32,490 nucleotides of DNA from Verrucomicrobiales bacterium (lineage in GTDB: Bacteria; Verrucomicrobiota; Verrucomicrobiia; Verrucomicrobiales; V1-33). The notes under the pieces are model-generated. The model had not been told where the DNA came from and did not search any database. It saw nothing but the letters and a program-made list of their open reading frames with translations. The stretch is taken from positions 1 through 32,490 of the forward strand of contig JAGNEJ010000057.1 of assembly GCA_018003315.1 (NCBI GenBank), given 5' to 3'. Shown here in pieces: positions 9,976-31,041 of the stretch; position 1 is the stretch's first letter; the number at the start of each line of letters is the position of its first letter. The position numbers were made by a program, and so were the translations under genes.

Positions 9976-10020
9976 TGGCAGGAAACGTTACTCATTCCAA
10001 TTCGCGTTCAAGGCGAGCGG

Positions 10021-12201: not shown

Positions 12202-13950
12202 TCATCTGTCCGGCGATCTGTCACCCCCCCGCTGCACCCACACATTTCCCAGCACCAGGACATCCATGGCCGTGCGGCGGAAACAGGAAAGCGCCTCCTC
12301 CGGAGTGCGCACCACCGGCTCGTTTTCATTGAGTGACGTGTTCAGAATAATCGGCACGCCGGTCTTTTCATGGAACCTGGAAATGAGCGCATGATAGAGC
12401 GGATTGGTGCGCCGCGACACGCTCTGCAGGCGGCCGCTGCCGTCCACATGGGTTACTGCGGGAATGAGCGGTCTCTTTTCAGGGCGAATGGGAAACACCT
12501 TTTCCATGTAGGGAGCCGGTTCATCCACCTCGAACCACCCGCCCACATGCTCCTCCAGAATGCTGGGCGCAAATGGTCGGAATTTTTCCCGCATCTTGAT
12601 CTTCAGATTGATGATGTCCCGCATGTCCGTGCGGCGCGGATCGGCGATGAGAGATCGGTTGCCCAGCGCCCGTGCGCCAAACTCCATCCGCCCTTGAAAC
12701 CATCCGACCACCTTCCCGTCCATCATCGCCGCGACGGTGCGCTCCAGCAGTTGCCCCTCCTCCAACACCTCGAACGGAAATTCGCCGCCTTGCGCCGCGC
12801 TGAGACACTGCCCGTGCGTAGCCTCCCAGCCCCAGTAGGCATGGTCCTGGACAAACCCCCGCGGATTTCCCAGCACCCGGTTCCAGATGTAAAAGGCCGC
12901 CCCGAAACTCGTCCCGTTGTCCGCGGCTCCCGCCGGAACATACACTTTTTCAAACGGGGTCCGCTGCGTCACCTTTCCATTGGCCACGGAGTTCATCGCC
13001 ACGCCGCCGGTCAGGCACACAGCTTCACTCCCGGTCTTTTCATGAAGCCGGTTGAGCACATGCATGATGATTTCCTCCGTCACCACCTGCAGGGACCTGG
13101 CGATGTTGTCGTGCTTCTGCGTCAACTCCTCCCCTTTGCGCCGCATCGGCCCAAGTTCCTTTTCCAGTCGCGCGCTGTGGAACGGCTCCACAACCGGCGC
13201 GCCGTCGTTCCAGCTCATGCGAATGCCATTTTTGTGGTGTGTGAAATAGTCGGTATCCAACTCAAATCCCTCACCCTTCACCCGCACGATGCGCCGGAAA
13301 ACATCCGCATACTCCGGCTCGCCGTAGGGTGCCAGCCCCATCACCTTGTATTCATCCCCGTAATACGGAAACCCCAGATACATCGTGACCGCGGTGTAAA
13401 GGAACCCCAGCGAGTACGGGTAAAACACCCGGTGCAGTTCCCGCCAGCAAGTCCCCTCGCCCATTGCCGTCAGCATGCTGGTGAAATCCCCCATGCCATC
13501 GACGGACAGCACCGCCGCCTTTTCATAAGGCGACACCAAAAAACCCGCCGCCACGTGGGTCTGGTGGTGCTCGATGCGGTGAAACTTCGCCTTCAGGCGC
13601 GATCGCTCCACCCCGGCTGCCGACGCAAATTGATCCTCCAGCCCCAGCGTCCTGCCCTGACGTTTCAGCCGGTCCAACACCGAGGATATCGACGGACGAT
13701 TCCGCAACACAAACCCAGCCCGCCTCCAAAAGTTCGCCTTCGGATCAAACGAAATTCCCACATGATCCACTTCCTCCGCCGCAACCCCCGCCACCTCAAG
13801 GCACCAGCGGATCGACTCCGCCGGAAAACCGGCCCAGTGCTTGATCCGGTTGAAGCGTTCTTCTTCCACGGCAGCCACGAGCTGGCCGTCGATGACAAGC
13901 GACGCCGACGCGTCGCCATGATAGGCGTTGATACCGAGAATGGTGGTCAT
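12202..13950 (-). CDS. Carbamoyltransferase (NodU/CmcH family)
   Basis: The 582-residue protein starts MTTILGINAYHGDASASL, the ASKHA-type N-terminal signature. It has EEERFNRIKHW (30-39), HHQTHVAAGF (128-137), CLTGGVAMN (312-320), DNGTSFGAA (344-352) and the C-terminal motif GRMEFGARALGNRS (about 420-433; usually GPRALGNRS). Such enzymes use carbamoyl phosphate and ATP to O-carbamoylate sugars or antibiotics; here the polysaccharide locus suggests a sugar residue. The start at 13950 is fixed by the family N-terminus. The 5' side immediately upstream (13961-14005) is a heptanucleotide array, so no Shine-Dalgarno is seen. Confidence 0.92.
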   Translation of the reverse strand: MTTILGINAYHGDASASLVIDGQLVAAVEEERFNRIKHWAGFPAESIRWCLEVAGVAAEEVDHVGISFDPKANFWRRAGFVLRNRPSISSVLDRLKRQGRTLGLEDQFASAAGVERSRLKAKFHRIEHHQTHVAAGFLVSPYEKAAVLSVDGMGDFTSMLTAMGEGTCWRELHRVFYPYSLGFLYTAVTMYLGFPYYGDEYKVMGLAPYGEPEYADVFRRIVRVKGEGFELDTDYFTHHKNGIRMSWNDGAPVVEPFHSARLEKELGPMRRKGEELTQKHDNIARSLQVVTEEIIMHVLNRLHEKTGSEAVCLTGGVAMNSVANGKVTQRTPFEKVYVPAGAADNGTSFGAAFYIWNRVLGNPRGFVQDHAYWGWEATHGQCLSAAQGGEFPFEVLEEGQLLERTVAAMMDGKVVGWFQGRMEFGARALGNRSLIADPRRTDMRDIINLKIKMREKFRPFAPSILEEHVGGWFEVDEPAPYMEKVFPIRPEKRPLIPAVTHVDGSGRLQSVSRRTNPLYHALISRFHEKTGVPIILNTSLNENEPVVRTPEEALSCFRRTAMDVLVLGNVWVQRGGDRSPDR

Positions 13951-13960
13951 GGGGTAAAAG

Positions 13961-14005
13961 CTGAAACGCTGAAGACGGAAATGCTGAAGACGGAAATGCT
14001 GAAAT
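13961..14005 (+). repeat. Degenerate 7-bp repeat array upstream of the carbamoyltransferase
   Basis: Units CTGAAAC, CTGAAGA, CGGAAAT, CTGAAGA, CGGAAAT, CTGAAAT, some separated by an extra G so that 15-base super-units form. It occupies about -11 to -55 relative to the carbamoyltransferase start. Same purine-strand consensus (C-N-G-A-R-A-S) as the other arrays in the window. Confidence 0.75.
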
Positions 14006-14238
14006 GAACGGGATCCCGGATTTGCAATCCGGCGACGCGCTTCATCCGATACGCATCCGGTTGGCGCTGTTGGCACCAAGCCATACCGGCCCATGGCCAC
14101 GCCCGGTAGCGCAGGAATCAGCGCACCATCACGTGGCAATACTCGATTTCTGCGGCGGCTTAATCCTGCCAGTAGGCCAGCGCCTGCGGATGGGGCGGCG
14201 GCCACGCGACGTTGCAAGTGCCGACCCAGGCCACATCC
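14006..14238. other. Intergenic stretch without a recognisable gene
   Basis: A 7-bp perfect stem (CCGGATT/AATCCGG, loop TGC) is seen near 14018-14034. Leftward translation gives one protein-like end (VAWVGTCNVAWPPPHPQ followed by a stop near 14160), possibly a fragment, but no family is recognised. Together with the array to its left, about 290 bases carry no supported gene. Confidence 0.35.
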
Positions 14239-14638: not shown

Positions 14639-14707
14639 GGTTCAATCTGCCGTCCTTGCGCCCCCGCCCTCCGCTCGGCGGCCAGGGTTGACGCACCAAA
14701 AACCGTT

Positions 14708-14758
14708 GGATTCACCGCAGAGACGCAAAGTTCGCAAAGAAACGCGGAGCAGAGCAAG
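14708..14758 (+). repeat. Degenerate ~9-bp repeat (ACGCAAAG type)
   Basis: Begins TTCACCGCAGAGACGCAAAG (14711-14730), then TCGCAAAGA and AACGCGGAGC. A second copy with 18 of 20 identical leading bases lies on the minus strand at 29386-29405, inside a glycosyltransferase gene. Repeats of this AGACGCAAAG kind are, as far as I recall, dispersed in many environmental genomes. Confidence 0.65.
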
Positions 14759-14797
14759 GGGGCACCCACGGCTCCCATGCCTGGCACCGCCAACGGC

Positions 14798-15443
14798 TCA
14801 CGGCTTCCGGAAAACCAGAATCATCGACTTGCCCAGGGCAGGAATCCGCCCGACTCGCAGAACCTTTTCGCAAACCATCCCCTGCTCGGCGAACAGCGCG
14901 GACAAGGTTTTCACCGACCAGAACTTGATGTGCCCGTGGTCCCACAAGGCGGTGAAATGCGCGTCCATCTTGCCGCTCAACGCCAGCGCGAGGTTCTTCA
15001 AGTAACCATGATAGGGCGTGCTGATGATCGCCCGGCCGCCGGATTCCAGCAGGTCCCGCACGCAGCGGGCATATTGGCGCGGATGATACACGTGCTCCAC
15101 CACTTCCAGCGAGACTACGAACGGAAAACATCCGTAGCGCCCGGCAAGATCCTCATAGGCATTCCCGACATCCAGCCGCAGCTCCGGGTCGGCGCGCCGG
15201 GCGATGGCGATGCCGCTCTCCGAGGGGTCCACCCCGGTCACCTCGTGGCCCAGCCCCTTCAAATACCGGGCCAGCGCCCCGTTGCCGCAGCCGAGGTCAA
15301 AAACCCTCTGCCCTCTGCCCTCTGCCCTCTGCCCTCTGCCCTCTGCCCTCCAGCTCCCGGCGGAGCGGCTCCCATAAATAGGCTTCGGTGTGGGCGGCAG
15401 CCGCCTCCGCGTAGTGGTATCCGGTCGCGATTTCGTCAGTCAT
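14798..15443 (-). CDS. SAM-dependent methyltransferase split by a heptanucleotide array (out of frame; phase-variable or broken)
   Basis: From an ATG at 15443, which overlaps the upstream GT2 stop by ATGA, translation reads MTDEIATGYHYAEAAAAH and EAYLWEPLRREL, then enters a 7-bp array and meets TGA. One frame away, directly after the array, the class I methyltransferase core resumes: VFDLGCGNGALARYL (motif I), GHEVTGVDPS, FVVSLEVVEHV and STPYHGYLKNL, ending at 14798. Joined, the two parts make a normal UbiG-like methyltransferase of about 210 residues. Losing one 7-bp unit, or gaining two, would restore the frame. The target is probably a sugar of the polysaccharide or its precursor. Whether it is a switch, a dead gene or a repeat-count sequencing error cannot be told from one sequence. 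Confidence 0.75.
15304..15350 (-). repeat. Heptanucleotide tandem repeat (CAGAGGG)6.7 inside methyltransferase gene
   Basis: Six perfect consecutive copies of CCCTCTG on the plus strand (15304-15345) plus a partial CCCTC. On the coding strand it reads (CAGAGGG)n, free of stop codons in every frame, encoding cycles of G-R-G-Q-R-A-E. It is the purest array in the window along with 31000-31041. Confidence 0.95.
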
Positions 15444-16207
15444 GGTTTTGATTTGGTGAGTTTGCGGTCGAGCAGTTCCAGGGAAAGCAACAACTCCGCG
15501 TAGCTGCGTTGGAGGGCGTAATGCCAGCCCGGCCAGCCATCCAGGATCATGCGCTTGGCGAGGAGCGTGTAGAGAAATGCCGCCGGAGCCGCCGGCCAGA
15601 TCATTTTCCGCAGGCGGTCGGGCCAGCCGGAATGGCCGTCCGTGGCGAGCAGTTTGTCCGCTTCCAGCTTGGCATACTTCGCCTGAGACGAAAGCCAGCG
15701 GGACAAGGGCTTGCGGTCGTCGTGGTCGATGCGCTGGTCCATGGAGATCACCGTTCCTTCGATGACCACTCGATGACCATGTCCATCGTCTTGATAAACC
15801 GCGTTTCCCTTGCGATAGAGGATAGTCCGAGGCGGATACAAACAAGCACGCAGCGGGTGCCCGTAGATACAGTATCGGAAAGGGAAACGATAACCCACCG
15901 CCCCCTGCGGTAGTAACGCCAGATGCTCCGCGAAGTCCACGGGGACGACATAGTCGGCGTCCATCGAGAGCACCCATGAAGTTTCTACCTGAAGCAAGCC
16001 GAAGTTGCATTGACCTGCGAACGAATCAAACGCCCGCTGAATCACCTCCACGTTCGGAAATCCCGCGCAGATCCGCAGCGTCCCGTCGTCGCTGCCGCTG
16101 TCGATGACCACCACGCGGCGCGCCCAGCCCAGGCGCTCCAGGCAGCGACCGATGTTCGCCTCCTCGTTGTAGGTGAGGACCAGCGGGGTGATTTCGGAAA
16201 GTTCCAT
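15440..16207 (-). CDS. Family 2 glycosyltransferase
   Basis: A 255-residue GT-A protein: MELSEITPLVLTYNEEANIG, VVVIDSGSDDGT with the nucleotide-binding acidic residues, and LSMDADYVVP carrying the D-x-D metal motif near residue 88. It resembles the WaaE/KdtX-like group of GT2 enzymes, including the later RKGNAVYQDDGHGH region. The start at 16207 is chosen because upstream translation is Gly/Arg-rich nonsense. It begins 11 bases after the preceding GT4 stop and overlaps the next gene (methyltransferase) by four bases (ATGA), so all three are likely one transcript. Confidence 0.9.
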   Translation of the reverse strand: MELSEITPLVLTYNEEANIGRCLERLGWARRVVVIDSGSDDGTLRICAGFPNVEVIQRAFDSFAGQCNFGLLQVETSWVLSMDADYVVPVDFAEHLALLPQGAVGYRFPFRYCIYGHPLRACLYPPRTILYRKGNAVYQDDGHGHRVVIEGTVISMDQRIDHDDRKPLSRWLSSQAKYAKLEADKLLATDGHSGWPDRLRKMIWPAAPAAFLYTLLAKRMILDGWPGWHYALQRSYAELLLSLELLDRKLTKSKP

Positions 16208-16218
16208 CGCAGGGTCGT

Positions 16219-17361
16219 TCAAGGGGTTCCGGACAAGATGGATTCGTACATCCCGCGCAAGCGCCGGCCCATCACCTCGGCGGAAAGCTCGGCCTGCGCG
16301 AAATCCACCGCCCGGCGGGACAATTCGGCGCGTGCGCCTGCATCGTGAATCAATCGCCGCAGCGCCGCGGCCAGGGAATCCACGTCCGGACCGCCGAGGA
16401 TCGCCGCGCCCGCCTTCGCCGCCACGGCTCCCAAAGCCACGCCCGGGGAGAACACACAAGCCCTCCCCGCGATCAATGCCTCCGCCGCCGCGATCCCAAA
16501 GTTCTCCGAGAACGACGGCAACACGAACACCGCGGCTCCCCGTTGCAGGCGGCTCTTGGCCACGCCCGCCACATGCCCGGGCCAGCTCGTCCGCTCGCCA
16601 ACACCCAGCTCGCGGGCCAATGCTTGCAGCGAGGCGACGTAGCTTGCCTCGCCCGATCCGGCGACTACCAAGGTCCACCCCTCGGCCACATCCGCGACTC
16701 CCGCCCAAGCACGCAGCAAGGTCTCGATGTTCTTCACCGGGTCGATGCGGGACAGGAAGAGGATGACCGGCTCCACAGCCACGCCCGCCTCCGGGATCCC
16801 GGAAAACTCCAGCCCCAGAGGCACCACCCGGGATCTCAGCGGTATTCCGAGCATCTCCGCCTCCTCACGTTCCGCCTCCGCCGTGAAATGCACCGCCGCC
16901 GCGCCGCGGACCAGCGGCCCGTCGATCCACCGCAGGCAGAACCGTTTCATGAACGCGCGCCGTTGCCGCACCCCGTATTGATTCAGTACCCCCAGCGGCC
17001 GGATGACATAGGGCACGCCCGCCGCCGCCGCCGCACGGCAAGCCGCCACGCTGGCGTGGGAAAAAAGGGCGTGGACATGCACCACATCGAAGTCCCGCAC
17101 ATGCCGCCGCAGCCATCCCGCCAAGGGCAGCGACACCTTGTAAAACTCCGTCTGCTTCCGGAAATACCGCCGCACCACGCCATTCTCCGACCGCGCCTCT
17201 CCATCGCCCAGACCGTTCCTCCGGCCGGGCCCGTCGTCATCGGTGGTCACCGTCACCACCTCGACTCCCTCGCGGGTCAGCGCCCTTTCCATGACGGGCA
17301 GGACCACGCTCGGCCCGCCGTGGCAAGGAGCGAGGGACGGAATGACATGAAGAACGCGCAT
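16219..17361 (-). CDS. Family 4 glycosyltransferase
   Basis: The 380-residue product begins MRVLHVIPSLAPCHGGPSVV, a standard GT4 N-terminal domain. The C-terminal Rossmann domain has ILFLSRIDPVKNIETLLRA, VVAGSGE, and the E-x7-E nucleotide-sugar motif in SFSENFGIAAAEALIAG. It would add a hexose-type sugar in the cytoplasm. The start ATG at 17361 gives the canonical first strand. It lies 30 bases after a PIN toxin gene stop, which is in the same orientation. Confidence 0.94.
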   Translation of the reverse strand: MRVLHVIPSLAPCHGGPSVVLPVMERALTREGVEVVTVTTDDDGPGRRNGLGDGEARSENGVVRRYFRKQTEFYKVSLPLAGWLRRHVRDFDVVHVHALFSHASVAACRAAAAAGVPYVIRPLGVLNQYGVRQRRAFMKRFCLRWIDGPLVRGAAAVHFTAEAEREEAEMLGIPLRSRVVPLGLEFSGIPEAGVAVEPVILFLSRIDPVKNIETLLRAWAGVADVAEGWTLVVAGSGEASYVASLQALARELGVGERTSWPGHVAGVAKSRLQRGAAVFVLPSFSENFGIAAAEALIAGRACVFSPGVALGAVAAKAGAAILGGPDVDSLAAALRRLIHDAGARAELSRRAVDFAQAELSAEVMGRRLRGMYESILSGTP

Positions 17362-17391: not shown

Positions 17392-17880
17392 TCAGGAATC
17401 CGAAATGGTTCGTGCAAGCCGCTCCACCGCCTGCGCCGGGGTGAGGCATTCGCTGTCCGCAAAGGCCTCGAAATCCGAAACACTGTCCGTGACCAGGCAG
17501 CGGATTCCCGCAGATAGCAACGTGGCGACGATATTGACGTCGTGCAGGCGCTTTCCCGCAGTGCCGTGGCGGAGAACAAGCTCCTGCCAAAGCGTCCACG
17601 CTTTTTCGGTCTCGGGCAGAAACTCTGCCCGCAAGTGAAAAGCCTCCATGTTGGCCATCGCATCGTCGACCGCCAGCCCAAGTCCGTTGGCCGCGACTGG
17701 ACGAGTGGCGACCACCGCATACTTCCGGAGAACCTGCCCGCTGAGCGCCAACAGAATGCCGGATCGCCCGGCATATTCCCATAAAGCGAACGCCGCCGGA
17801 TGACTGCCGCGACTGGTGTCCGTGGCGGCCACCAAGACATTGGTATCCACAAACCAACGCTCAACGATCCCCGCCATCAT
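17392..17880 (-). CDS. PIN-domain toxin (FitB/VapC-like), possible catalytic substitution
   Basis: About 161 residues with a PIN fold: VDTNVLVAAT (D11), LSGQVLRKYAVV (helix usually ending in Glu, here K52), LHDVNIVATL (D113) and LVTDSVSDF (D131). PIN toxins are Mg-dependent RNases. Three acidic positions are kept, but the usual second Glu appears to be Lys; the alignment was made by eye. Two adjacent ATGs (17880, 17877) are possible starts. It overlaps the upstream RHH antitoxin gene by about 20 bases, the usual layout of FitAB/VapBC pairs. Confidence 0.82.
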   Translation of the reverse strand: MMAGIVERWFVDTNVLVAATDTSRGSHPAAFALWEYAGRSGILLALSGQVLRKYAVVATRPVAANGLGLAVDDAMANMEAFHLRAEFLPETEKAWTLWQELVLRHGTAGKRLHDVNIVATLLSAGIRCLVTDSVSDFEAFADSECLTPAQAVERLARTISDS

Positions 17881-18094
17881 CGTAAATGTCGGCCCGCTGG
17901 AACGGACGGGATTCGCCGCTGGCGGCGAACTTGAGAGAAAATCGCTCGCGGTGCGTCTCCTCCGACGCTTCCCGGGCTGCCGCTTCCAGCAATTCGAGCA
18001 ACTCCTTCTGCAAGCTATGGTTCCGAGCTTTTGCCAGCCGCCGCAGGGCGGCCGCCGTATGGTCGGGAACATTGCGAATCAGCAGGGATTTCAT
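17861..18094 (-). CDS. Ribbon-helix-helix antitoxin (FitA-like)
   Basis: A 77-residue protein with MKSLLIRNVPDHTAAALRRL and ARNHSLQKELLELLEAA, the FitA/Arc-MetJ RHH pattern. It would bind the PIN toxin encoded by the overlapping next gene and repress its own promoter. The start at 18094 is preferred over an upstream in-frame codon since the first beta-strand begins here. The tail (ADIYDDGGDR) is acidic, as expected for a toxin-binding end. The upstream 100 bases carry a short GATAGY hexamer repeat (about 18095-18115). Confidence 0.85.
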   Translation of the reverse strand: MKSLLIRNVPDHTAAALRRLAKARNHSLQKELLELLEAAAREASEETHRERFSLKFAASGESRPFQRADIYDDGGDR

Positions 18095-18893: not shown

Positions 18894-20774
18894 TCAATTC
18901 GCGGTTCGAAGCGGCTTGGGCATCACCCGCCCCGCCGTTGACCTCACCACCGCCGCCACCGCCCAGGTGCGGTACCACGCGTTCAGCTCGACGGGCGAAA
19001 CCCGCTTCGCCTCTGCCAGCAGATCTCCGAAGCGCCCCTCCATCCACTGCTGGAAAGGAAAGCGGAATCCCCGCTTCGGCTGGTTCCACACCCATTCCGG
19101 CACTTCCGGCACCGCTTCGAGCAGCAATTTCTTGCCCTGCCGCAAACGGGCCTCCGGCGGCAGGGCGAGCAACGTTTCCGCAAGCCGCACATCGACAAGC
19201 GGCACCCGCAGTTCCAGCCCGTGGGCCATCGAAAACACGTCGCTGTCCCGCAAAAGCTGGTTGCGCATGTAGCGCGTCACCTCCAGGTGCGACACCATCG
19301 CGCAGTCCGAGAGCGGAGAGCGGGGGGCGGAAAGCGAAACATCCGAGAAGTCCGGCTTCTCCGCCACCTCGCCGAGGAGCGCATTCACAAGCTGGCCAGC
19401 CTCGTCCGGAGTGAAAATCCCGCGCTGTGCATGATACGCGGCCAGCCACGAGTTTTCACCTCGCAGGAAAGCAGCCAGGCGTCGCCACGGACTGCCCGCC
19501 GCACGCCGGTCGAGCCACCAAGCTACCAGCGGCCGCAGCGGCCCGAGCCCGCGATGGAGCCTGCGGAACTGTGGCACCCGCTGAAACGATCCGTAGCCCG
19601 CGAAAAACTCGTCACCACCCAGCCCGGACAGCACGACCTTCATCCCTTCGCGCCGCGCCAATTTGCTCACGCACCAGGTGTTGAAGCCATCGATCGACGG
19701 CTGGTCCACCGCCGCCAGGAACGCCGGGATTTCCGCCGCCCCCTCCTCCGCCGTCATCCGCCACTCGGTGTGACGTGCGCCGAAATGCTCCGCCGTCCGC
19801 CGGGCGATCCCGGATTCGTCGAACTCCGCATCGTCGAAACCGATGGAAAAGGTCCGCAGATCGGCATCCGGCCCCAGAATCTCCCGCGCCAAGGCCAGCA
19901 CCACCGTCGAATCGATCCCACCGCTCAGGAAAATCCCCACCGGCACGTCCGCGACCAAATGCCGACGCATCGACTCCACCAGCGCCCCGCGGGTGGCCTG
20001 GATGGTTGATCGTTGATGGTTGATGGCACTCCGCCTTCGTCTCTCTCTTGTCTCTTGCCTCTTGCCTTCAGGTTTCCGGTCTCCGTCCTCAGGTCTCGTC
20101 TCCCCCTTCCACCGCTCCGCCGTCGCCCGGCCATCCTTCCACCGCAACAAATGACCCGCCGGGAGCTGGCGGATCGCCCGGTGCAAGGTCGCCGGCTCCG
20201 GCACGCTGCCCCACAGGAAATAATCGCGCAGCGCGTCCGCATCCACCTCATCGCCCTCGCGCCGCAGAACCCGCATCTCCGAGGCGAAGGCCAGCGTCCC
20301 GCCATCGATGCGATAATAGAGCGGTTTGATCCCGAACGCATCCCGCGCCAGCAACGCCTCGCCGCGACCCTCATCCCAGAACGCGAACGCGAACATCCCC
20401 GCCAACTTCGGCAGCGCCTGTCCCCCCTCGCGCACCAGCAATCGCAGCAACACCTCGGTGTCCGAGTCCCCCGCAAACTCCTCCCCCGCCGCCTCCAGTT
20501 CCGCCCGCAGCTCCCGGAAATTGTAGATCTCCCCGTTGAAGGTGAGGACGGAAGTGATGGATGGTCTCCGGTCTCCCGTCTCCGGTCTCTCATACCCCAT
20601 CGGCTGCGCCCCGGCCTCGCCCAGGCCGATGATCGCCAGACGCGTGTGCACCAGCGTCGCGCCGTCGCTCCACCACACGCCCGAACCATCTGGCCCGCGC
20701 TGGCGCAGCCCGTCGCGGAACTTCTCCGCGTCCCAGCCCGCGTCCGGACCCATCCATCCTGCGATGCCGCACAT
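18894..20774 (-). CDS. asnB: Asparagine synthase (glutamine-hydrolysing) family amidotransferase with repeat-derived insertions
   Basis: A 626-residue class II amidotransferase. C2 (MCGIAGWMGP) is the glutaminase nucleophile, RQRGPDGSG, LVHTRLAI and FNGEIYNFRELR follow, and the synthetase domain carries the PP-loop SGGIDST (284-290), VLSGLGGDEFFAGY (381-394) and the C-terminal KRGFRFPFQQWMEGRF. In polysaccharide loci these enzymes probably amidate a uronic acid or related sugar. Three 7-bp arrays lie inside it, all in frame: residues about 62-74, 225-258 (the linker between domains) and 478-490. They encode charged or low-complexity loops absent from typical homologues. Upstream bases 20775-20870 hold no gene. 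Confidence 0.93.
   Translation of the reverse strand: MCGIAGWMGPDAGWDAEKFRDGLRQRGPDGSGVWWSDGATLVHTRLAIIGLGEAGAQPMGYERPETGDRRPSITSVLTFNGEIYNFRELRAELEAAGEEFAGDSDTEVLLRLLVREGGQALPKLAGMFAFAFWDEGRGEALLARDAFGIKPLYYRIDGGTLAFASEMRVLRREGDEVDADALRDYFLWGSVPEPATLHRAIRQLPAGHLLRWKDGRATAERWKGETRPEDGDRKPEGKRQETRERRRRSAINHQRSTIQATRGALVESMRRHLVADVPVGIFLSGGIDSTVVLALAREILGPDADLRTFSIGFDDAEFDESGIARRTAEHFGARHTEWRMTAEEGAAEIPAFLAAVDQPSIDGFNTWCVSKLARREGMKVVLSGLGGDEFFAGYGSFQRVPQFRRLHRGLGPLRPLVAWWLDRRAAGSPWRRLAAFLRGENSWLAAYHAQRGIFTPDEAGQLVNALLGEVAEKPDFSDVSLSAPRSPLSDCAMVSHLEVTRYMRNQLLRDSDVFSMAHGLELRVPLVDVRLAETLLALPPEARLRQGKKLLLEAVPEVPEWVWNQPKRGFRFPFQQWMEGRFGDLLAEAKRVSPVELNAWYRTWAVAAVVRSTAGRVMPKPLRTAN
19307..19334 (+). 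repeat. Heptanucleotide array in asnB (synthetase domain)
   Basis: Four units in exact phase: CCGAGAG, CGGAGAG, CGGGGGG, CGGAAAG, with a fifth weak unit CGAAACA. On the coding (minus) strand it yields SLSAPRSPLSD near residue 480, in frame. Confidence 0.8.
20004..20101. repeat. Heptanucleotide arrays in asnB linker
   Basis: Two parts: three units of (G/C)GTTGAT at 20004-20024, and eight pyrimidine units at 20046-20101 (TCTTGTC, TCTTGCC twice, TTCAGGT, TTCCGGT, CTCCGTC, CTCAGGT, CTCGTCT). The coding strand reads them as a strongly charged stretch (GDRKPEGKRQETRERRRR) and then NHQRSTIQ between the glutaminase and synthetase domains. Confidence 0.8.
20563..20590. repeat. Heptanucleotide array in asnB glutaminase domain
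   Basis: GGTCTCC, GGTCTCC, CGTCTCC, GGTCTCT in exact 7-base phase. On the coding strand this is ERPETGDRR, inserted between GAQPMGY and the conserved FNGEIYN. Confidence 0.8.
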
Positions 20775-20870: not shown

Positions 20871-21137
20871 TCATTCGTAAACATTCCTGCGATGCCCCAC
20901 CGCCACCACCAGGACTAACAACTCGCCATCCCGAATCTGGCAGAGAATGCGGTAATCGCCGACCCGGTAGCGCCAGATTCCAGCCAGGTCCGACCTCAGC
21001 CCTTTGCCAAAGCGGCGCGGATCTTCATCACCAGAGATCCGTTCGTCGAGATAGGCGACAATGTCGCGCTGGGCCTGCTTGCCGAGCTTTCGAAGGTCCT
21101 TCAGTGCCCGCTCATCGAACCTATAAACCCAACTCAT
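20871..21137 (-). CDS. RelE/ParE-family toxin
   Basis: An 88-residue RelE-like protein: VYRFDERALKDLRKLGKQAQ, then GKGLRSDLAGIWRYRVGDYR and ILCQIRDGELLVLVVAVGHR, with the family's typical R-V-G-x-Y-R-I core and C-terminal GHRRNVYE. RelE toxins cut mRNA on the ribosome. It overlaps the preceding antitoxin gene by 17 bases. Confidence 0.93.
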   Translation of the reverse strand: MSWVYRFDERALKDLRKLGKQAQRDIVAYLDERISGDEDPRRFGKGLRSDLAGIWRYRVGDYRILCQIRDGELLVLVVAVGHRRNVYE

Positions 21138-21371: not shown

Positions 21372-22217
21372 TCAGAACGACACCCCGAGAACCTCCACCA
21401 TTGGCGAGCTTTGCACCCGCGCCTCGCATTCCTGTCGATCCCGAATCCACAGAGCGTTGTGAGAACCACCTTTTCCCTCGCGGAACTCCCGCCGGAAAGG
21501 ATCGTAGCTGCACGCCTCGAAGCCCTGTTTCCTTAAAATTTCCACGGTCCGCGCACTTTCCGTCTCGACCATGAGCGCTTTCAACCGCGGATCAGCCAGA
21601 GCACGGCCCGCTCCCTCAAGCACCTCCGTTTCGAATCCCTCGACATCGATCTTCCACAAAATTGCCGGAAATTCCTCCAGCTGATCATCCAGGCGCACCA
21701 CCGGCACATCAATCGTCGCGCCCTGGTAATCCTCCCTGACGACCTGATTCATGGTATCGCGATCTGCCGTGAACTGCAAAACCCCGGACTCCCGGCCCAC
21801 CGCACTGAGGACAGCGTCCACTTTCTCGCTGATTTCGTTAACGGCCACGTTCCGCAAAAGCTTCGCATGGGTGGCGGGATGAGGTTCGAAAGCGGTCGTT
21901 CAGGCACCAACGACCGCGGACGCCAAAACCGAGTAGGACCCGATATTCGCGCCGATGTCCGCGAAGCCGTCCTCCGGGCGCAAGAGATGCAATACCAGCG
22001 CCATGTCAGCGAACTCATGCAGGCCGCAATACAGGTTTCCCGTCGCGCCTGTCATCCCGGTTTCAACCACTAGCTTCGCATCACCGATCCAATCCCAAAT
22101 GACCGGCTTGCGCAGAACCCGCGAGCCGATCTGCCATCGCAGCCACCTCTGGAGCGCCATGGCGCGGTTCCTCGACGAAATCGGATGCCGGCAGATATAT
22201 TTGATTGTTTGATACAT
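21372..22217 (-). pseudogene. FkbM-family methyltransferase interrupted by one in-frame TGA
   Basis: From the ATG at 22217 translation reads MYQTIKYICRHPISS, then FADIGANIGSYSVLASAVVG (SAM-binding motif I), then A and a TGA at 21902-21900. The same frame continues TTAFEPHPATHAKLLRNVAVN, then PAILWKIDVEGFETEVLEGA, and ends at 21372. Apart from the stop, a normal FkbM protein of about 280 residues results. The family puts O-methyl groups on sugars and other small molecules. The stop is where homologues have a variable residue, often Arg; CGA to TGA is a single transition. Sequencing error, true decay, or TGA readthrough are all possible. The upstream glycosyltransferase 3' end stops one base before the start codon. 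Confidence 0.82.
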
Positions 22218-22430: not shown

Positions 22431-22827
22431 TCAGGAACGGGATCCGAGTTCCGCCTTAATGAGGGCAGCCATTTCACCCATGAAACGCCGCAGGTCGGGA
22501 TAATCGTGTCCCACTTCGGTGAGATCACCGCCGGGGTAGTGCTGTGCCCAAAATTGATTCGTCAGACCGTCCGCGAAGTCCTCGAACGCGCTGAATCGTG
22601 GGTCCAGAGCCACGGCTCTCGGCAACGAGAGCGCCAAGATCGTGGATCCGCCGGAGCTTCCAACCGCAGGCAATTAAATAAGCCTTCAAATACCGCTCGG
22701 CTGCCTCATGCAGCAACTCGATCACCGACTCGTTGGCCCCTTCGAGCGGATGGAGGGAGTCTGCGGATTGCAGGCGCGTGCGGGCGGACCGAAGCCAATC
22801 CGCGGGGTTATTCTCGCTTGTTTTCAA
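22431..22827 (-). pseudogene. HEPN-domain protein, frameshifted
   Basis: The ATG at 22827 opens MKTSENNPADWLRSARTRLQ, then LLHEAAERYLKAYLIACGWK and HDLGALVAES, the HEPN (PF05168-like) pattern. Near 22614-22623 (GGCTCTCGGC on the plus strand) the frame shifts, and the expected C-terminal half continues one frame away: AVALDPRFSAFEDFADGLTN, FWAQHYPGG, and MGEMAALIKAELGSRS ending at 22431. Joined, about 137 residues, a normal HEPN length. HEPN partners of MNT proteins act as RNases or as the toxin. In the present reading the product is truncated with a wrong tail. It overlaps the MNT gene by four bases. Confidence 0.75.
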
Positions 22828-23216
22828 ATGAGCACGAGCCCCTTCGTGGTGATTTCCTCATGAAAATCGGCTCCATGATCGAGCCGTTGCTGCAAGTCCT
22901 CCGGAGAGCGCACCATGATATCGAGGGGCAGGTTGGCCCCCGTGTGGCGCAGGGGCCTCAGCGCCCGGCGGATGCGGGTGGCTTCGGAAACCGGCGCGCC
23001 CTCGAAGTCTTTGATGACAAGCAAGTCCACATCGCTGTCCTCGGTCGGCACGCCGTAGGCGTAGGACCCGAATAAAACAACACGATCCGGCCGAAACCGC
23101 TCCGCAAGCACCTTCAGATAGGGTCGCAGTTGATCGGCGATCCTGTGAACCGGATACCGGGGATCCCGCAGTACGCTTTCCCGGATTTTCGGGAGACCGA
23201 CCTCAGTGGACTTCAT
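22824..23216 (-). CDS. MNT-type nucleotidyltransferase (antitoxin of MNT/HEPN pair)
   Basis: A 130-residue protein with VVLFGSYAYG (G50, S51) and EDSDVDLLVI (D62, D64), the G-S-x(n)-S-D-x-D nucleotidyltransferase motif. MNT antitoxins in this family AMPylate the HEPN toxin in characterised cases. The stop overlaps the HEPN start by ATGA. The pair lies between two copies of a glycosyltransferase 3' end. Confidence 0.9.
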   Translation of the reverse strand: MKSTEVGLPKIRESVLRDPRYPVHRIADQLRPYLKVLAERFRPDRVVLFGSYAYGVPTEDSDVDLLVIKDFEGAPVSEATRIRRALRPLRHTGANLPLDIMVRSPEDLQQRLDHGADFHEEITTKGLVLI

Positions 23217-27283: not shown

Positions 27284-28515
27284 GGGAGTGCCGTGCTCGT
27301 GTAGATCTCTGCCCATTCCTGTCTGAACCGCTCCGGACCGAATCGATCCTCATAGTCAGCGCGGGCGGCTACCCCCATCGTCTTCGTCCGTTCCAGATTC
27401 GCCAGCATCCCATTCATCGCCGAAGTCAGCGACTCCACGGTTTTCTCCTCACATACATAACCATCCACCCCGTGCCGGATCATTTCGGGCAGCCCGCCCG
27501 ACGGAAAAACGACCGACGGGAGGCCCGCCCGCTTGGCTTCCATCACCACGTTTGCCGACGGTTCTTCCCAGATCGACGGACATACATGGAGAGAACCCCA
27601 TCGGAACCATCCATCGACGTCCGTCACCTGCCCGGCCCAGAAAACGAATCTCTCCAGCCCGAGTTCCTGCACTCTTGCGACCACTGCAGTCCGGAAATCG
27701 CCATCCCACCGGCTCGCACCCAGGAGCCACAGTCTTGCCCCTTGGTGGTCGGCCACCACCTTCGCGAACGCGTCGATAAGAGTCATTACTCCCTTGTGTT
27801 CGGAAATCGCCCCGACATACATGATCGCGAATTCATGATCTCGGAGGGGCGGCGGTTTGCTTGATTCGCCAGAAGGAATCATCGGTGCAAGATTGTAGAT
27901 TCTCGATATCCGCTGCGCATCCACTCCTGCAGCTACAGCAGACGCTCTGACATACTCGGAATTGGCGACGACCCGCGTGGTCCGCCCCATGCCCGCCTTC
28001 CAAATCCGGAAATTGAACGGTGACTCCACCGGCGGGCAATCACCCATGCGCCAAATCAAGGGGATTCGCCGGTGACAGGCCAACGCCAGCGAGAGGAACG
28101 AATAGGCAAGCTCCGAACCGAGCTGAATATGCGTCGGCTGAAATTTCCGGATTTCCCTGGAAAACGAGCGACTGCACTGCCAAACCGCTCCGAGATGCCT
28201 GAGTCCATACATCGGCCCTTCCTTCTTCAGCCATTGCAGCGACCACTGCGGGCGAAAAGGCAGCGGAAAGATCGCAAAGCCGAGATCCTGCAAATGACGG
28301 CCTACGGCACCGCCATTATCGCTCGCATTCACCCCCACACACACCTTGGCGCCCAACTCGCGCAGCGCGTGGAAAACCTCGATATTTCCCTTCTCATGGC
28401 CGAACAGCTCCAAGCCGTTGAGCGCGGAAATCACCCTCACTCCTCGCAATGATTGCCCACATTTGGAATCCGTTTCGGCCATACCCTCGATCAGCAAAAG
28501 GTGATCGATTAACAC
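27280..28515 (-). CDS. Family 4 glycosyltransferase
   Basis: The 411-residue product has VRVISALNGLELFGHEKGNI, RRIPLIWRMGDCPP, IMYVGAISEHKGVMTLIDAF and PSIWEEPSANVVMEAKRAG (E-x7-E type), the standard order of a GT4. A GTG at 28515 overlaps the upstream stop (GTGTTAA) and is used here. An ATG at 28482 (MAETDS) is the alternative; a GAGGG lies only one base before it, too close for a normal ribosome-binding site. Confidence 0.91.
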   Translation of the reverse strand: MLIDHLLLIEGMAETDSKCGQSLRGVRVISALNGLELFGHEKGNIEVFHALRELGAKVCVGVNASDNGGAVGRHLQDLGFAIFPLPFRPQWSLQWLKKEGPMYGLRHLGAVWQCSRSFSREIRKFQPTHIQLGSELAYSFLSLALACHRRIPLIWRMGDCPPVESPFNFRIWKAGMGRTTRVVANSEYVRASAVAAGVDAQRISRIYNLAPMIPSGESSKPPPLRDHEFAIMYVGAISEHKGVMTLIDAFAKVVADHQGARLWLLGASRWDGDFRTAVVARVQELGLERFVFWAGQVTDVDGWFRWGSLHVCPSIWEEPSANVVMEAKRAGLPSVVFPSGGLPEMIRHGVDGYVCEEKTVESLTSAMNGMLANLERTKTMGVAARADYEDRFGPERFRQEWAEIYTSTALP

Positions 28516-30149
28516 AAATCCGGCCGAACAGGCTCCTTGAGCCTCCCGGCTGCCACGATCCGGCGAAAAAAACCGGCAAGCATCTTCGCTTGCGACTTCG
28601 CGGAATACGGTTCGAACGCCTCACGATCCAGCGGCTTGGACTCAGGACTCAGTTCCAAAAATCCCGGCACGTCACAAATCCGCCTGGCGATCTGTTCGGG
28701 AGTTGCCCCGCTGGAAAAAGGCACCAGATGCCCCCCCCCAACCTGTTCAAGCAGCCTGCACACCGAGCTTTGTTCGTGAAACACCGCCAGCAGCGGCTTT
28801 TCCGCCAGTAGATAGGGATAAATCTTCGACGCCGTGTAGCCGGGATCGTCCGTGCCAGGAACGAGAAGCAAATCCGCATCGAGCAGGCACCTGAGAGCCT
28901 CGGAATACGGGATTCGATCCGTCATCTCGGAAACCAGATCCTGTAGCCCGAAATGCGCCGCCAGCGGCTCCACCACTTTCTCCGCCGTGCCTGCGGGAGC
29001 GTACGATGTCCCGGCGAAATGCAGCTTCAACGTCTCGAACAGCCCGGGCTGTGAAGATCTCAACCGAGACAAGGCCTCGAAAAGCGCGCGGATCGAAAAC
29101 AACATGCTAGGCGGGCATACCCCCACATACACCCAATGCTGCTTTGCATCGTTCGGATCGAAAACCGATTGCCGAATGCCCGACTCCCGTGCGCGTTCGA
29201 GATCCCGCTCGTCGCCGGGGAAAGGAAGGACGAGGGAGAAAAGCTGAGAGCGGAAAGCGGAAAGCGGAAACCTGAAACCTGAAACCTGATGGCGGAAACC
29301 TGATGGCTGAGATGGGAATGTGGCTTCACAGGGCTCCACAGGGTCTCGGCTTTCCTCGTCTTCCGCCTCTGCGCCCCTTGGCGTCCTTTGCGTCTTGGCG
29401 GTGAACTCTTCAATCGCAAGCCATGGATAGCGCGCCTGAAGCTGTCTGGGATACGCTGCGGACACGCTGGTGATCCCGGCGCACTCCCGTAGCACCCGCG
29501 GTTCTTGGCGGCGGGCCAACCATTCGACGATGGAGTATTTCAAACGCCCGCCCGGCGGCACCACCTCCGGGTGCTCCCGGTAGTAGTCGCTCACCCAGGG
29601 ATCCTGGTAGTCCATCACGAAGGGCACGCCGAAGCGCTTCTTCCAACGGGGACCGAGCACATGCACCGGAAACACCGTGGTCGAAAAATAGACGAGGTCG
29701 AAAGGCAAAAGCTGAGAGCTGAAAGTGGAAAGTTGAAATGAAGAAGCAGAACCGTCATCAGCCGCCCGGCCTCCGACCACAACCTTCCGCTTTTCGCTTT
29801 CCGCTTTCAGCTTTTCGTTTTCACCTTTCCGCTTTCCACTTTCCGCTTTTCTTCCCAACAGCTCATCCCCCTTCTTTCTCAGGGCGCGCAGCGCCCGGAA
29901 TCCCAGCGTTCCCAGTCCGGGCAGCCGGCTCCACCCCGTTCCCAGCGCCTTCACCCGGTGGACCGGCACTTCCGGCGGCAATCCATCCGCCAGCCAGTGG
30001 TCAAGCGGCGAGGCGACATCCGAAGGTTCCACCGCCAAAACCTCCGCCTGGACCCCATGTTCCGCCAGATACGGCACCAGTAGCCTCACCCGCTGCATGT
30101 CCGCCGCGTTGGTCGGCGGAAAGTGTGGCGAGACGATGAGAAGGCGCAT
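28509..30149 (-). CDS. Glycosyltransferase with two repeat-derived in-frame insertions
   Basis: A 546-residue GT-B protein: MRLLIVSPHFPPTNAADMQR at the start, PFVMDYQDPWVSDYY, HWVYVGVCPPSML, and LLVPGTDDPGYTASKIYPYL near the end, typical of GT4-like enzymes of about 430 residues. Two stretches are extra: residues about 100-149 (Lys/Glu/Ser-rich, then FQLSTFSSQL) and 249-305 (TAKTQRTPRG, then SGFRHQVSGFRFPLSAF). The DNA of both (29703-29852 and 29237-29407) consists of 7-bp arrays and a 9-bp repeat. Reading frame is kept across both. The start codon is directly preceded by another 7-bp array, so no Shine-Dalgarno is visible. Confidence 0.87.
   Translation of the reverse strand: MRLLIVSPHFPPTNAADMQRVRLLVPYLAEHGVQAEVLAVEPSDVASPLDHWLADGLPPEVPVHRVKALGTGWSRLPGLGTLGFRALRALRKKGDELLGRKAESGKRKGENEKLKAESEKRKVVVGGRAADDGSASSFQLSTFSSQLLPFDLVYFSTTVFPVHVLGPRWKKRFGVPFVMDYQDPWVSDYYREHPEVVPPGGRLKYSIVEWLARRQEPRVLRECAGITSVSAAYPRQLQARYPWLAIEEFTAKTQRTPRGAEAEDEESRDPVEPCEATFPSQPSGFRHQVSGFRFPLSAFRSQLFSLVLPFPGDERDLERARESGIRQSVFDPNDAKQHWVYVGVCPPSMLFSIRALFEALSRLRSSQPGLFETLKLHFAGTSYAPAGTAEKVVEPLAAHFGLQDLVSEMTDRIPYSEALRCLLDADLLLVPGTDDPGYTASKIYPYLLAEKPLLAVFHEQSSVCRLLEQVGGGHLVPFSSGATPEQIARRICDVPGFLELSPESKPLDREAFEPYSAKSQAKMLAGFFRRIVAAGRLKEPVRPDLC
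29244..29313 (+). repeat. Heptanucleotide array, ten units, inside glycosyltransferase
   Basis: In exact 7-base phase: CTGAGAG, CGGAAAG (2), CGGAAAC, CTGAAAC (2), CTGATGG, CGGAAAC, CTGATGG, then CTGAGAT. The gene reads the opposite strand, where the units have no stop codon. Confidence 0.93.
29361..29405 (-). repeat. Degenerate ~9-bp repeat inside glycosyltransferase
   Basis: On the minus strand: TTCACCGCCAAGACGCAAAG (29405-29386), then GACGCCAAGG and GGCGCAGAGG. Same family as 14708-14758 (18 of 20 leading bases equal), opposite strand. Confidence 0.7.
29712..29739 (+). repeat. Heptanucleotide array, four units
   Basis: CTGAGAG, CTGAAAG, TGGAAAG, TTGAAAT in exact phase. Purine-rich strand is plus, opposite to the array at 29783-29852, so the two face each other across 43 bases. 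Confidence 0.85.
29783..29852 (-). repeat. Heptanucleotide array, ten units
   Basis: Plus-strand units CCTTCCG, CTTTTCG, CTTTCCG, CTTTCAG, CTTTTCG, TTTTCAC, CTTTCCG, CTTTCCA, CTTTCCG, CTTTTCT; purine-rich strand is minus (coding). It encodes the KAESGKRKGENEKLKAESEK segment. Confidence 0.92.
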
Positions 30150-30150
30150 G

Positions 30151-30192
30151 GAGAGAGCAGAGAGCAGAGAGCGGAGAGCGGAGAGTTGAAAC
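30151..30192 (+). repeat. Heptanucleotide array directly upstream of the glycosyltransferase start
   Basis: GAGAGAG, CAGAGAG (2), CGGAGAG (2), TTGAAAC. It fills 42 of the 58 bases between the DUF3368 gene stop (30208) and the glycosyltransferase ATG (30149), replacing the usual ribosome-binding region with a pyrimidine-rich leader on the transcribed sense strand. Confidence 0.9.
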
Positions 30193-30207: not shown

Positions 30208-30714
30208 TCATTGGCATTCCCCGACCTCGGCGAGCGCCAGGCGGATCAGGTCTTCTGAAAGCCAGATGCCCTGGGAGCGCATGCGCCGGATGCTTTGATC
30301 GAGGCTGGCAATAACACCTTCTTTCCTTGCCCTGACCAAGATGCCGAGGGAACCGGTCACCTTTAACCCATGAAGTCTTGCCACTCTTCTTCCGGATTTT
30401 TCGTCGATGGCAACCGTGGCGATGCCACGCTCAAGAGCGGTGTGAATCACGCTGGCCTCGCCCCGATCGAGTTCACGAGTCAGAAATGCCGGCAGTCCGC
30501 GCGATGGAGGCAACCGCCGGATGGTCTCCCAGGTGGCGCGAACAAGTGCCGGTTCCGGGGCCAGCGGCCCACCCGCGGAAAGTTCTTCATCCACCTCTCC
30601 GGGCACCCAGACATTTTGATAGAGTGAAGCCAACCAGTCCAACTTCCCCGTGGCGGCAACCAGAGCGATGACGGGTCCCGTATTGATGACAATCTCAGGC
30701 GTGCTCGATTTCAT
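30208..30714 (-). CDS. DUF3368 PIN-like putative toxin
   Basis: A 168-residue protein: EIVINTGPVIALVAATGKLD, VWVPGEVDEELSAGG (Glu after the first strand), LDRGEASVIHTALERG and TVAIDEKSGRRVARLHG, then GSLGILVRARKEG. This is the layout of DUF3368, a PIN-like family usually paired with UPF0175. The start at 30714 overlaps its partner gene by 20 bases. Proposed role: RNase toxin; this is inferred from the family. Confidence 0.85.
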   Translation of the reverse strand: MKSSTPEIVINTGPVIALVAATGKLDWLASLYQNVWVPGEVDEELSAGGPLAPEPALVRATWETIRRLPPSRGLPAFLTRELDRGEASVIHTALERGIATVAIDEKSGRRVARLHGLKVTGSLGILVRARKEGVIASLDQSIRRMRSQGIWLSEDLIRLALAEVGECQ

Positions 30715-30946
30715 CGGCAAATTCGTCTCCATCCCACCCTACCGCCGCGACTCCCACCCGGTGCAGGGAGCGCAGGAACGTGCCGCGGTCCATCGGGATC
30801 AGCGCCGCGGCTTGGCCCGACGAGAGGCGGCCGAGTTCGAACAACTTGGAGGCCAGGGCCAAACGCATGGTGTGCTCGAACTCATCCCGGGACAACCTCG
30901 CGCTGTCAGGCAGGCATTCCGGGTATTCGATAACCAGGGTGTTCAT
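30695..30946 (-). CDS. UPF0175 putative antitoxin
   Basis: An 83-residue protein: MNTLVIEYPECLPDSARLSR, EFEHTMRLALASKLFELGRL and SSGQAAALIPMDRGTFLRSL, the UPF0175 helix-turn-helix family. It is commonly encoded before DUF3368 proteins, as here. The start at 30946 is the family start; the frame is open upstream but runs through the 7-bp array at 31000-31041 (giving FQVSGFRFQVS) and is probably not translated. Confidence 0.85.
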   Translation of the reverse strand: MNTLVIEYPECLPDSARLSRDEFEHTMRLALASKLFELGRLSSGQAAALIPMDRGTFLRSLHRVGVAAVGWDGDEFADEIEHA

Positions 30947-30999: not shown

Positions 31000-31041
31000 C
31001 GGAAACCTGAAACCTGAAACCTGAAACCTGAAACCTGAGAG
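31000..31041 (+). repeat. Heptanucleotide array, six units, upstream of the UPF0175 gene
   Basis: CGGAAAC, CTGAAAC (4), CTGAGAG in exact phase. It lies in the 143-base gap between the acyltransferase stop (31090) and the antitoxin start (30946). Purity of the four central units suggests recent copying. Confidence 0.95.

Follow-up and report, generated by a model that had tools for sequence, protein, structure and literature searches.

Why is a methyltransferase gene in a surface-glycan locus split between two reading frames by a short tandem repeat? In the window, as we call the whole 32,490-nucleotide stretch of Verrucomicrobiales DNA analyzed here, the N-terminal segment of this gene (MT) and its SAM-binding core lie on either side of a heptanucleotide array and out of frame with each other. 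We regard a slippage-switched (contingency) glycan methyltransferase, OFF in the assembled state, as the probable though far from secure explanation, and treat the placement of MT among contingency genes, made from its sequence, as provisional. The gene comprises the following elements:

15351–15443, minus strand: MT N-terminal segment, 31 residues from the ATG at 15443
15304–15350, minus strand: perfect (CAGAGGG)6.7 array, whose final G opens the Val codon of VFDLGCG
15297–15299, minus strand: TGA that closes the out-of-frame (OFF) reading, with a product of 48 residues
14798–15304, minus strand: MT SAM-binding core, 168 residues plus stop, in the +1 frame relative to the N-terminal segment; PF13489 (Methyltransf_23)

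TRF finds 6.7 copies of CCCTCTG, which is CAGAGGG on the minus strand, at exactly 15304–15350 with 100% matches. The frame that opens at the ATG at 15443 translates to MTDEIATGYHYAEAAAAHTEAYLWEPLRRELEGRGQRAEGRGQRAEGF and ends at the TGA at 15299–15297, the residues up to the array being MTDEIATGYHYAEAAAAHTEAYLWEPLRREL; the core, which runs from VFDLGCGNG to RKP and a stop at 15304–14798, is one base off this frame. The repeat unit therefore sits inside a reading frame with a length that is not a multiple of three, and since 7 mod 3 equals 1, the frame is restored by the loss of one unit or the gain of two. The array is free of stops in all three frames, each of which encodes a permutation of GRGQRAE, and some copy numbers yield a single continuous full-length MT frame. 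The essentials had been claimed in the initial annotation, namely that 6.7 copies of a 7-bp unit separate the 31-residue N-terminus from a core in another frame, that one unit fewer or two more would regain the core frame, and that no frame of the array holds a stop; TRF and translation agree with the first statement to the base, and frame arithmetic and three-frame translation bear out the others. Two further routes into the core were considered and discarded: internal initiation in the core frame, where no ATG, GTG or TTG occurs from the upstream stop to motif I, and stop-codon readthrough from the preceding glycosyltransferase gene (GT2), which shares the frame of the core and would insert a nonsense linker.

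The array is not a product of chance, as 7-bp arrays of at least three copies were absent from 200 first-order Markov (dinucleotide-based) randomizations of the window (maximum 2.86 copies), and period-7 arrays of that size number five in the 32-kb window versus none in 950 kb sampled as 60 stretches from the same genome. A CAGAGGG array of at least three copies is unique to the MT gene in the entire 5.09-Mb assembly, a 96.5% complete draft of 155 contigs and the single genome of its species. On the coding strand, the array presents GGG every 7 bases, and a motif of the G-quadruplex type reaches 15358; such a structure may promote slippage.

To judge from its sequence, the MT product is a class I SAM methyltransferase. 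The core scores 69.2 bits against PF13489 (cut-off 27) and carries motif I (VFDLGCGNG), and among solved structures those closest to it are of UbiG-like and other class I methyltransferases. Assignment to the UbiG equivalog TIGR01983 was rejected, as two intact homologs score 59.8 and 67.8 bits, below the curated cut-off of 102.95. We examined about 100 homologs chosen by core similarity, so that breaks within the core are under-sampled and linker and core are not fairly comparable. Nearly all of them have a homologous N-terminal segment in frame, marked by GYxY and HxYLLP/YLW motifs and followed by a variable linker and motif I. One otherwise intact homolog (L028, from position 10007 onward) has VFDLRCGNG in place of VFDLGCGNG, and its enzyme may be impaired.

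Measured from the YLLPxV/YLWEPL motif, the linker spans 10–24 residues across the family. The predicted window alleles of 2.7, 5.7 and 8.7 units would have loops of 10, 17 and 24 residues (30, 51 and 72 nt), so the in-frame alleles fit the family. For the intact homolog L026, AlphaFold2 (mean pLDDT 89.9, alignment of 54 sequences) predicts a helix at residues 19–33, a short loop and a strand at residues 38–42 with motif I. This places the array in the surface loop that joins helix A to strand 1.

The genes surrounding MT point to its likely role. It forms part of a conserved cassette with the following members:

18894–20774, minus strand: asparagine synthetase-like gene (AsnB)
16219–17361, minus strand: GT4 glycosyltransferase, weakly HpsP/XYAG1-like
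15440–16207, minus strand: GT2 glycosyltransferase, directly upstream of MT
12202–14217, minus strand: carbamoyltransferase (NodU-like); its Pfam match begins at residue 93, which makes a true start downstream of 14217 probable

The TGA of GT2 overlaps the MT start codon at 15443 as ATGA. The order AsnB-GT4-GT2-MT-carbamoyltransferase is common to the window, to the nearest relative, the Akkermansiaceae MAG UBA2367 (L025; G059) from the same order as the source genome, and to L028, and it is partially present in L027, L029 and planctomycete records. A Wzy-type (O-antigen) ligase, further GT4 genes and an acyltransferase flank the cassette. The proposal that the locus codes for surface glycans thus stands, with glycosyltransferase, O-antigen ligase, acyltransferase and carbamoyltransferase genes as neighbors, and judged from these genes MT would act on a surface glycan. 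A close MT copy is absent from the same-genus genome G001 and from the other same-family genomes searched, which suggests that the cassette was probably acquired horizontally. Toxin–antitoxin-like genes (PIN, ParE, nucleotidyltransferase and DUF3368) are interspersed among the glycan genes on the minus strand, at 17392–18072, 20871–21137, 22824–23216 and 30208–30732.

Both halves of MT are under purifying selection, and neither has been free of it for long. In the comparison with UBA2367, which is 84% identical to the window over the MT core, dN/dS is 0.102 for the core and 0.091 for the N-terminal segment; these are coarse estimates, with large synonymous distances and 31 codons behind the N-terminal value. 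Both are lower than the values of all four neighbors in the same pair (AsnB 0.21, GT4 0.24, GT2 0.21, carbamoyltransferase 0.15). The dN values of the window and UBA2367 to the outgroups are similar (L026, 0.183 and 0.160; L027, 0.183 and 0.170; L028, 0.199 and 0.172; L029, 0.244 and 0.249), and thus do not strongly indicate that constraint has relaxed along the window lineage. A second stop or frame break was found in neither half. A dN/dS of about 0.10 would nonetheless be compatible both with a young pseudogene and with a switch, and cannot tell the two apart.

According to the switch model, MT would be translated just behind GT2, and the array in the helix A–strand 1 loop would be prone to slippage of DNA polymerase, which would alter the count of 7-bp units. 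Counts of 2.7, 5.7 or 8.7 would make the frame continuous and yield the full enzyme (ON); with any other count, including that of the assembled state, translation would end just past the array (OFF). A population would then mix cells with methylated and unmethylated surface glycan. Reversible slippage, expression, substrate and benefit of the switch are features that we infer. Against the model stand the modest copy number of 6.7 and the fact that MT is represented by one allele in one draft assembly.

Heptamers are a recurrent feature of this cluster. Besides the MT array, the window contains the following:

29249–29289, minus strand: AGCGGAA (3.1 copies) and GAAACCT (3.3 copies), inside the glycosyltransferase ORF 28509–30149 and in frame at present
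30152–30185, minus strand: array of the CTCTCTG/CTCTCCG type, immediately upstream of the ATG at 30149 of the same glycosyltransferase
31002–31038, minus strand: perfect GAAACCT array of 5.3 copies, intergenic

Several different arrays between 29240 and 31102 surround the PIN/DUF3368 pair, the start of the glycosyltransferase gene and the end of the acyltransferase gene. The glycosyltransferase ORF 28509–30149 (minus strand) keeps two heptamer-derived stretches in frame (29785–29851 and 29240–29303), and is a second candidate for repeat-driven frame change, presently ON. In addition, fragments resembling dispersed repeats, with units of the CGCAAAG/CGCCAAGG type, occur at 14700–14790 and 29340–29400 in intergenic and coding DNA.

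The same cluster in relatives carries heptamers with other units, such as ATGAGGC (6 copies) in UBA2367, CAGAGGT (8.1 copies) in L029 and several in L028, which lie between genes or at gene ends where they could be read. Across the order, 17 of 387 genomes contain (CAGAGGG)3; as far as domain matches show, these arrays lie mostly in intergenic DNA or at the edges of genes, and the CAGAGGG unit is thus not a dedicated switch. Among the heptamer arrays of the cluster, the one in MT is special in splitting a frame. The MT array probably derives from a kind of heptamer repeat that builds up in the glycan cluster. Membership in a dispersed heptamer STRR element was rejected, given its intragenic position and the confinement of such arrays to the window in the genome sample.

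The linker of MT homologs is also interrupted or repeat-bearing in other bacteria. UBA2367 likewise has N-terminus and core in different frames, with the break in this linker; it falls at a G6 run, a weak slippage tract, and heptamers are absent there. A Chlorobiaceae MAG (L077) is out of frame in the linker at G8. A Burkholderiales MAG (L061) has an in-frame G11 tract in the linker, 18 nt ahead of the core, which by its sequence is a strong candidate for homopolymer phase variation. Marivita lacus (L098) shows a linker frameshift without a repeat. An apparent poly-G frame break in a genome from the Thiohalocapsa family search (L225) was set aside, as a second break at a T4 run in its N-terminus marks it as a probable sequencing error or decay. 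Searches of plasmid and viral collections returned few additional homologs and no new linker tract.

G/C runs of at least 8 are about sevenfold denser in the MT gene than in its flanks (6 in 50 kb versus 21 in 1.21 Mb; 120 versus 17 per Mb). However, four of the six runs fall on the LEPGG motif, where codon use favors G runs, so codons explain part of the excess. The G7–G9 tracts at LEPGG (in Thiohalocapsa, Contendobacter and others) arise from GGG GGG GTN codons, and we accordingly left them out of the linker evidence. Four gammaproteobacterial homologs (L035, L063, L070 and L078) carry in-frame G8–G9 runs at this motif, about 262 nt into the core. Convergence is therefore supported by the linker G11, G8 and G6 tracts together with the heptamer, whose positions are suggestive but not conclusive. 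It is a tentative idea, which we think rather less likely true than false, that unrelated bacteria have convergently adopted the helix A–strand 1 loop as a contingency site, each lineage with a repeat of its own (the heptamer here; poly-G in UBA2367, Chlorobiaceae and Burkholderiales), and that on/off methylation of surface glycans is widespread in free-living environmental bacteria.

The most serious rival to the switch is recent loss of function, in which an STRR-type heptamer, common between the genes of this cluster in relatives, expanded by chance within MT and left a young pseudogene in a gene-losing locus. The intergenic or gene-end position of the relatives' heptamers favors this account, as does the repeat-free linker frameshift of Marivita lacus. 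It also draws support from a second methyltransferase gene in the window, of the FkbM type (22217–21372, minus strand), which is broken by a single in-frame TGA at 21902–21900 (ASAVVGA-stop-TTAFEPHP). The frame is open on both sides of this codon and the FkbM match lies downstream of it, so that the TGA is either a nonsense mutation or a consensus error. A nonsense codon is not a switch and slippage does not explain it; part of the locus may therefore be decaying. On the other hand, neither half of MT bears a further lesion, dN/dS of both halves is below that of the intact neighbors, and a G11 tract in frame with G8 and G6 tracts out of frame at the same site elsewhere would not be expected from random decay. 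Weighing these points, we consider recent inactivation unlikely, if well short of negligible. The initial description of MT as having the classical structure of a contingency gene consequently holds only in part: the anatomy, the low dN/dS of both halves, the length-tolerant loop and the recurrence of simple sequence repeats in the linker of other phyla agree with it, whereas the mostly intergenic or gene-edge arrays of relatives and the nearby FkbM nonsense codon keep inactivation in contention.

An error of assembly or consensus, such that the real copy number differs and MT is always in frame, seems to us improbable. Miscounted repeats are typical consensus errors, the assembly is a draft of 155 contigs, and the two homopolymer frame breaks within the single gene of L225 form the pattern expected of sequencing error. 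However, a usual short read exceeds the 47-bp array and easily spans it, and the array is perfect and flanked by unique sequence. Least credible of all is translational +1 recoding, a slip at UUU UGA C at the array end that would give low-level enzyme from unchanged DNA: the frame-0 codons GGU UUU UGA CCU would yield GFDLGCG after a +1 slip, the site is similar to the prfB slip site CUU UGA C and the GAGGG repeats resemble a Shine–Dalgarno stimulator, but the spacing is unlike that of prfB, UBA2367, whose core is likewise offset by +1, reads CUU CGA at this site and lacks the stop, and intact relatives read straight through.

Should the slippage switch be real, it would matter beyond this locus, as most known cases of phase variation are from host-associated pathogens. 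A glycan methyltransferase that can be switched in an uncultured member of the Verrucomicrobiales, together with different slippery tracts at the same loop in other phyla, would suggest that stochastic variation of surface glycans extends to free-living bacteria, perhaps as a defense against phages or grazers. Our literature search found no published description of heptamer phase variation in Verrucomicrobia.

Among known systems, UbiG-like class I SAM methyltransferases (PF13489) share the core fold and motif I (DLGCGNG) with MT, which forms a family apart from UbiG, located in glycan loci and marked by an N-terminal YLW/YLLP helix. Xanthomonas and Nostoc have G-rich heptamers (GGGAATC and GGGGAYT) that vary in copy number and are G-quadruplex capable (PMC4692102). 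They resemble the MT array in their G-run plus loop, with GGG every 7 bp, but are scattered genome-wide, chiefly in non-coding DNA, and do not favor surface genes, whereas CAGAGGG forms one intragenic array. In Haemophilus influenzae, heptanucleotide repeats are found in the hmw1a and hmw2a promoters and, as AACAACC, upstream of a TonB receptor gene, and one tract has 1, 6 and 7 units at the same gene in different strains (PMC2651432). The 7-bp unit is shared with MT, and copy number differing between strains is a feature of H. influenzae; its tracts precede the genes and influence transcription or initiation, in contrast to the MT array inside a reading frame. Like MT are also the phase-variable poly-G/C genes of Campylobacter jejuni capsule and LOS, where a slippage-prone tract lies in or near a glycan-modifying gene and the frame sets whether the full-length product is made; the HS:19 capsule locus includes a methyltransferase gene with such a tract (PMC8743553). 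These are homopolymers of a host-associated pathogen with documented variation, whereas MT has a 7-bp unit and belongs to an uncultured Verrucomicrobiales bacterium known from one assembly. By analogy, the proposed MT switch would follow the mechanism of Haemophilus and Campylobacter contingency genes.
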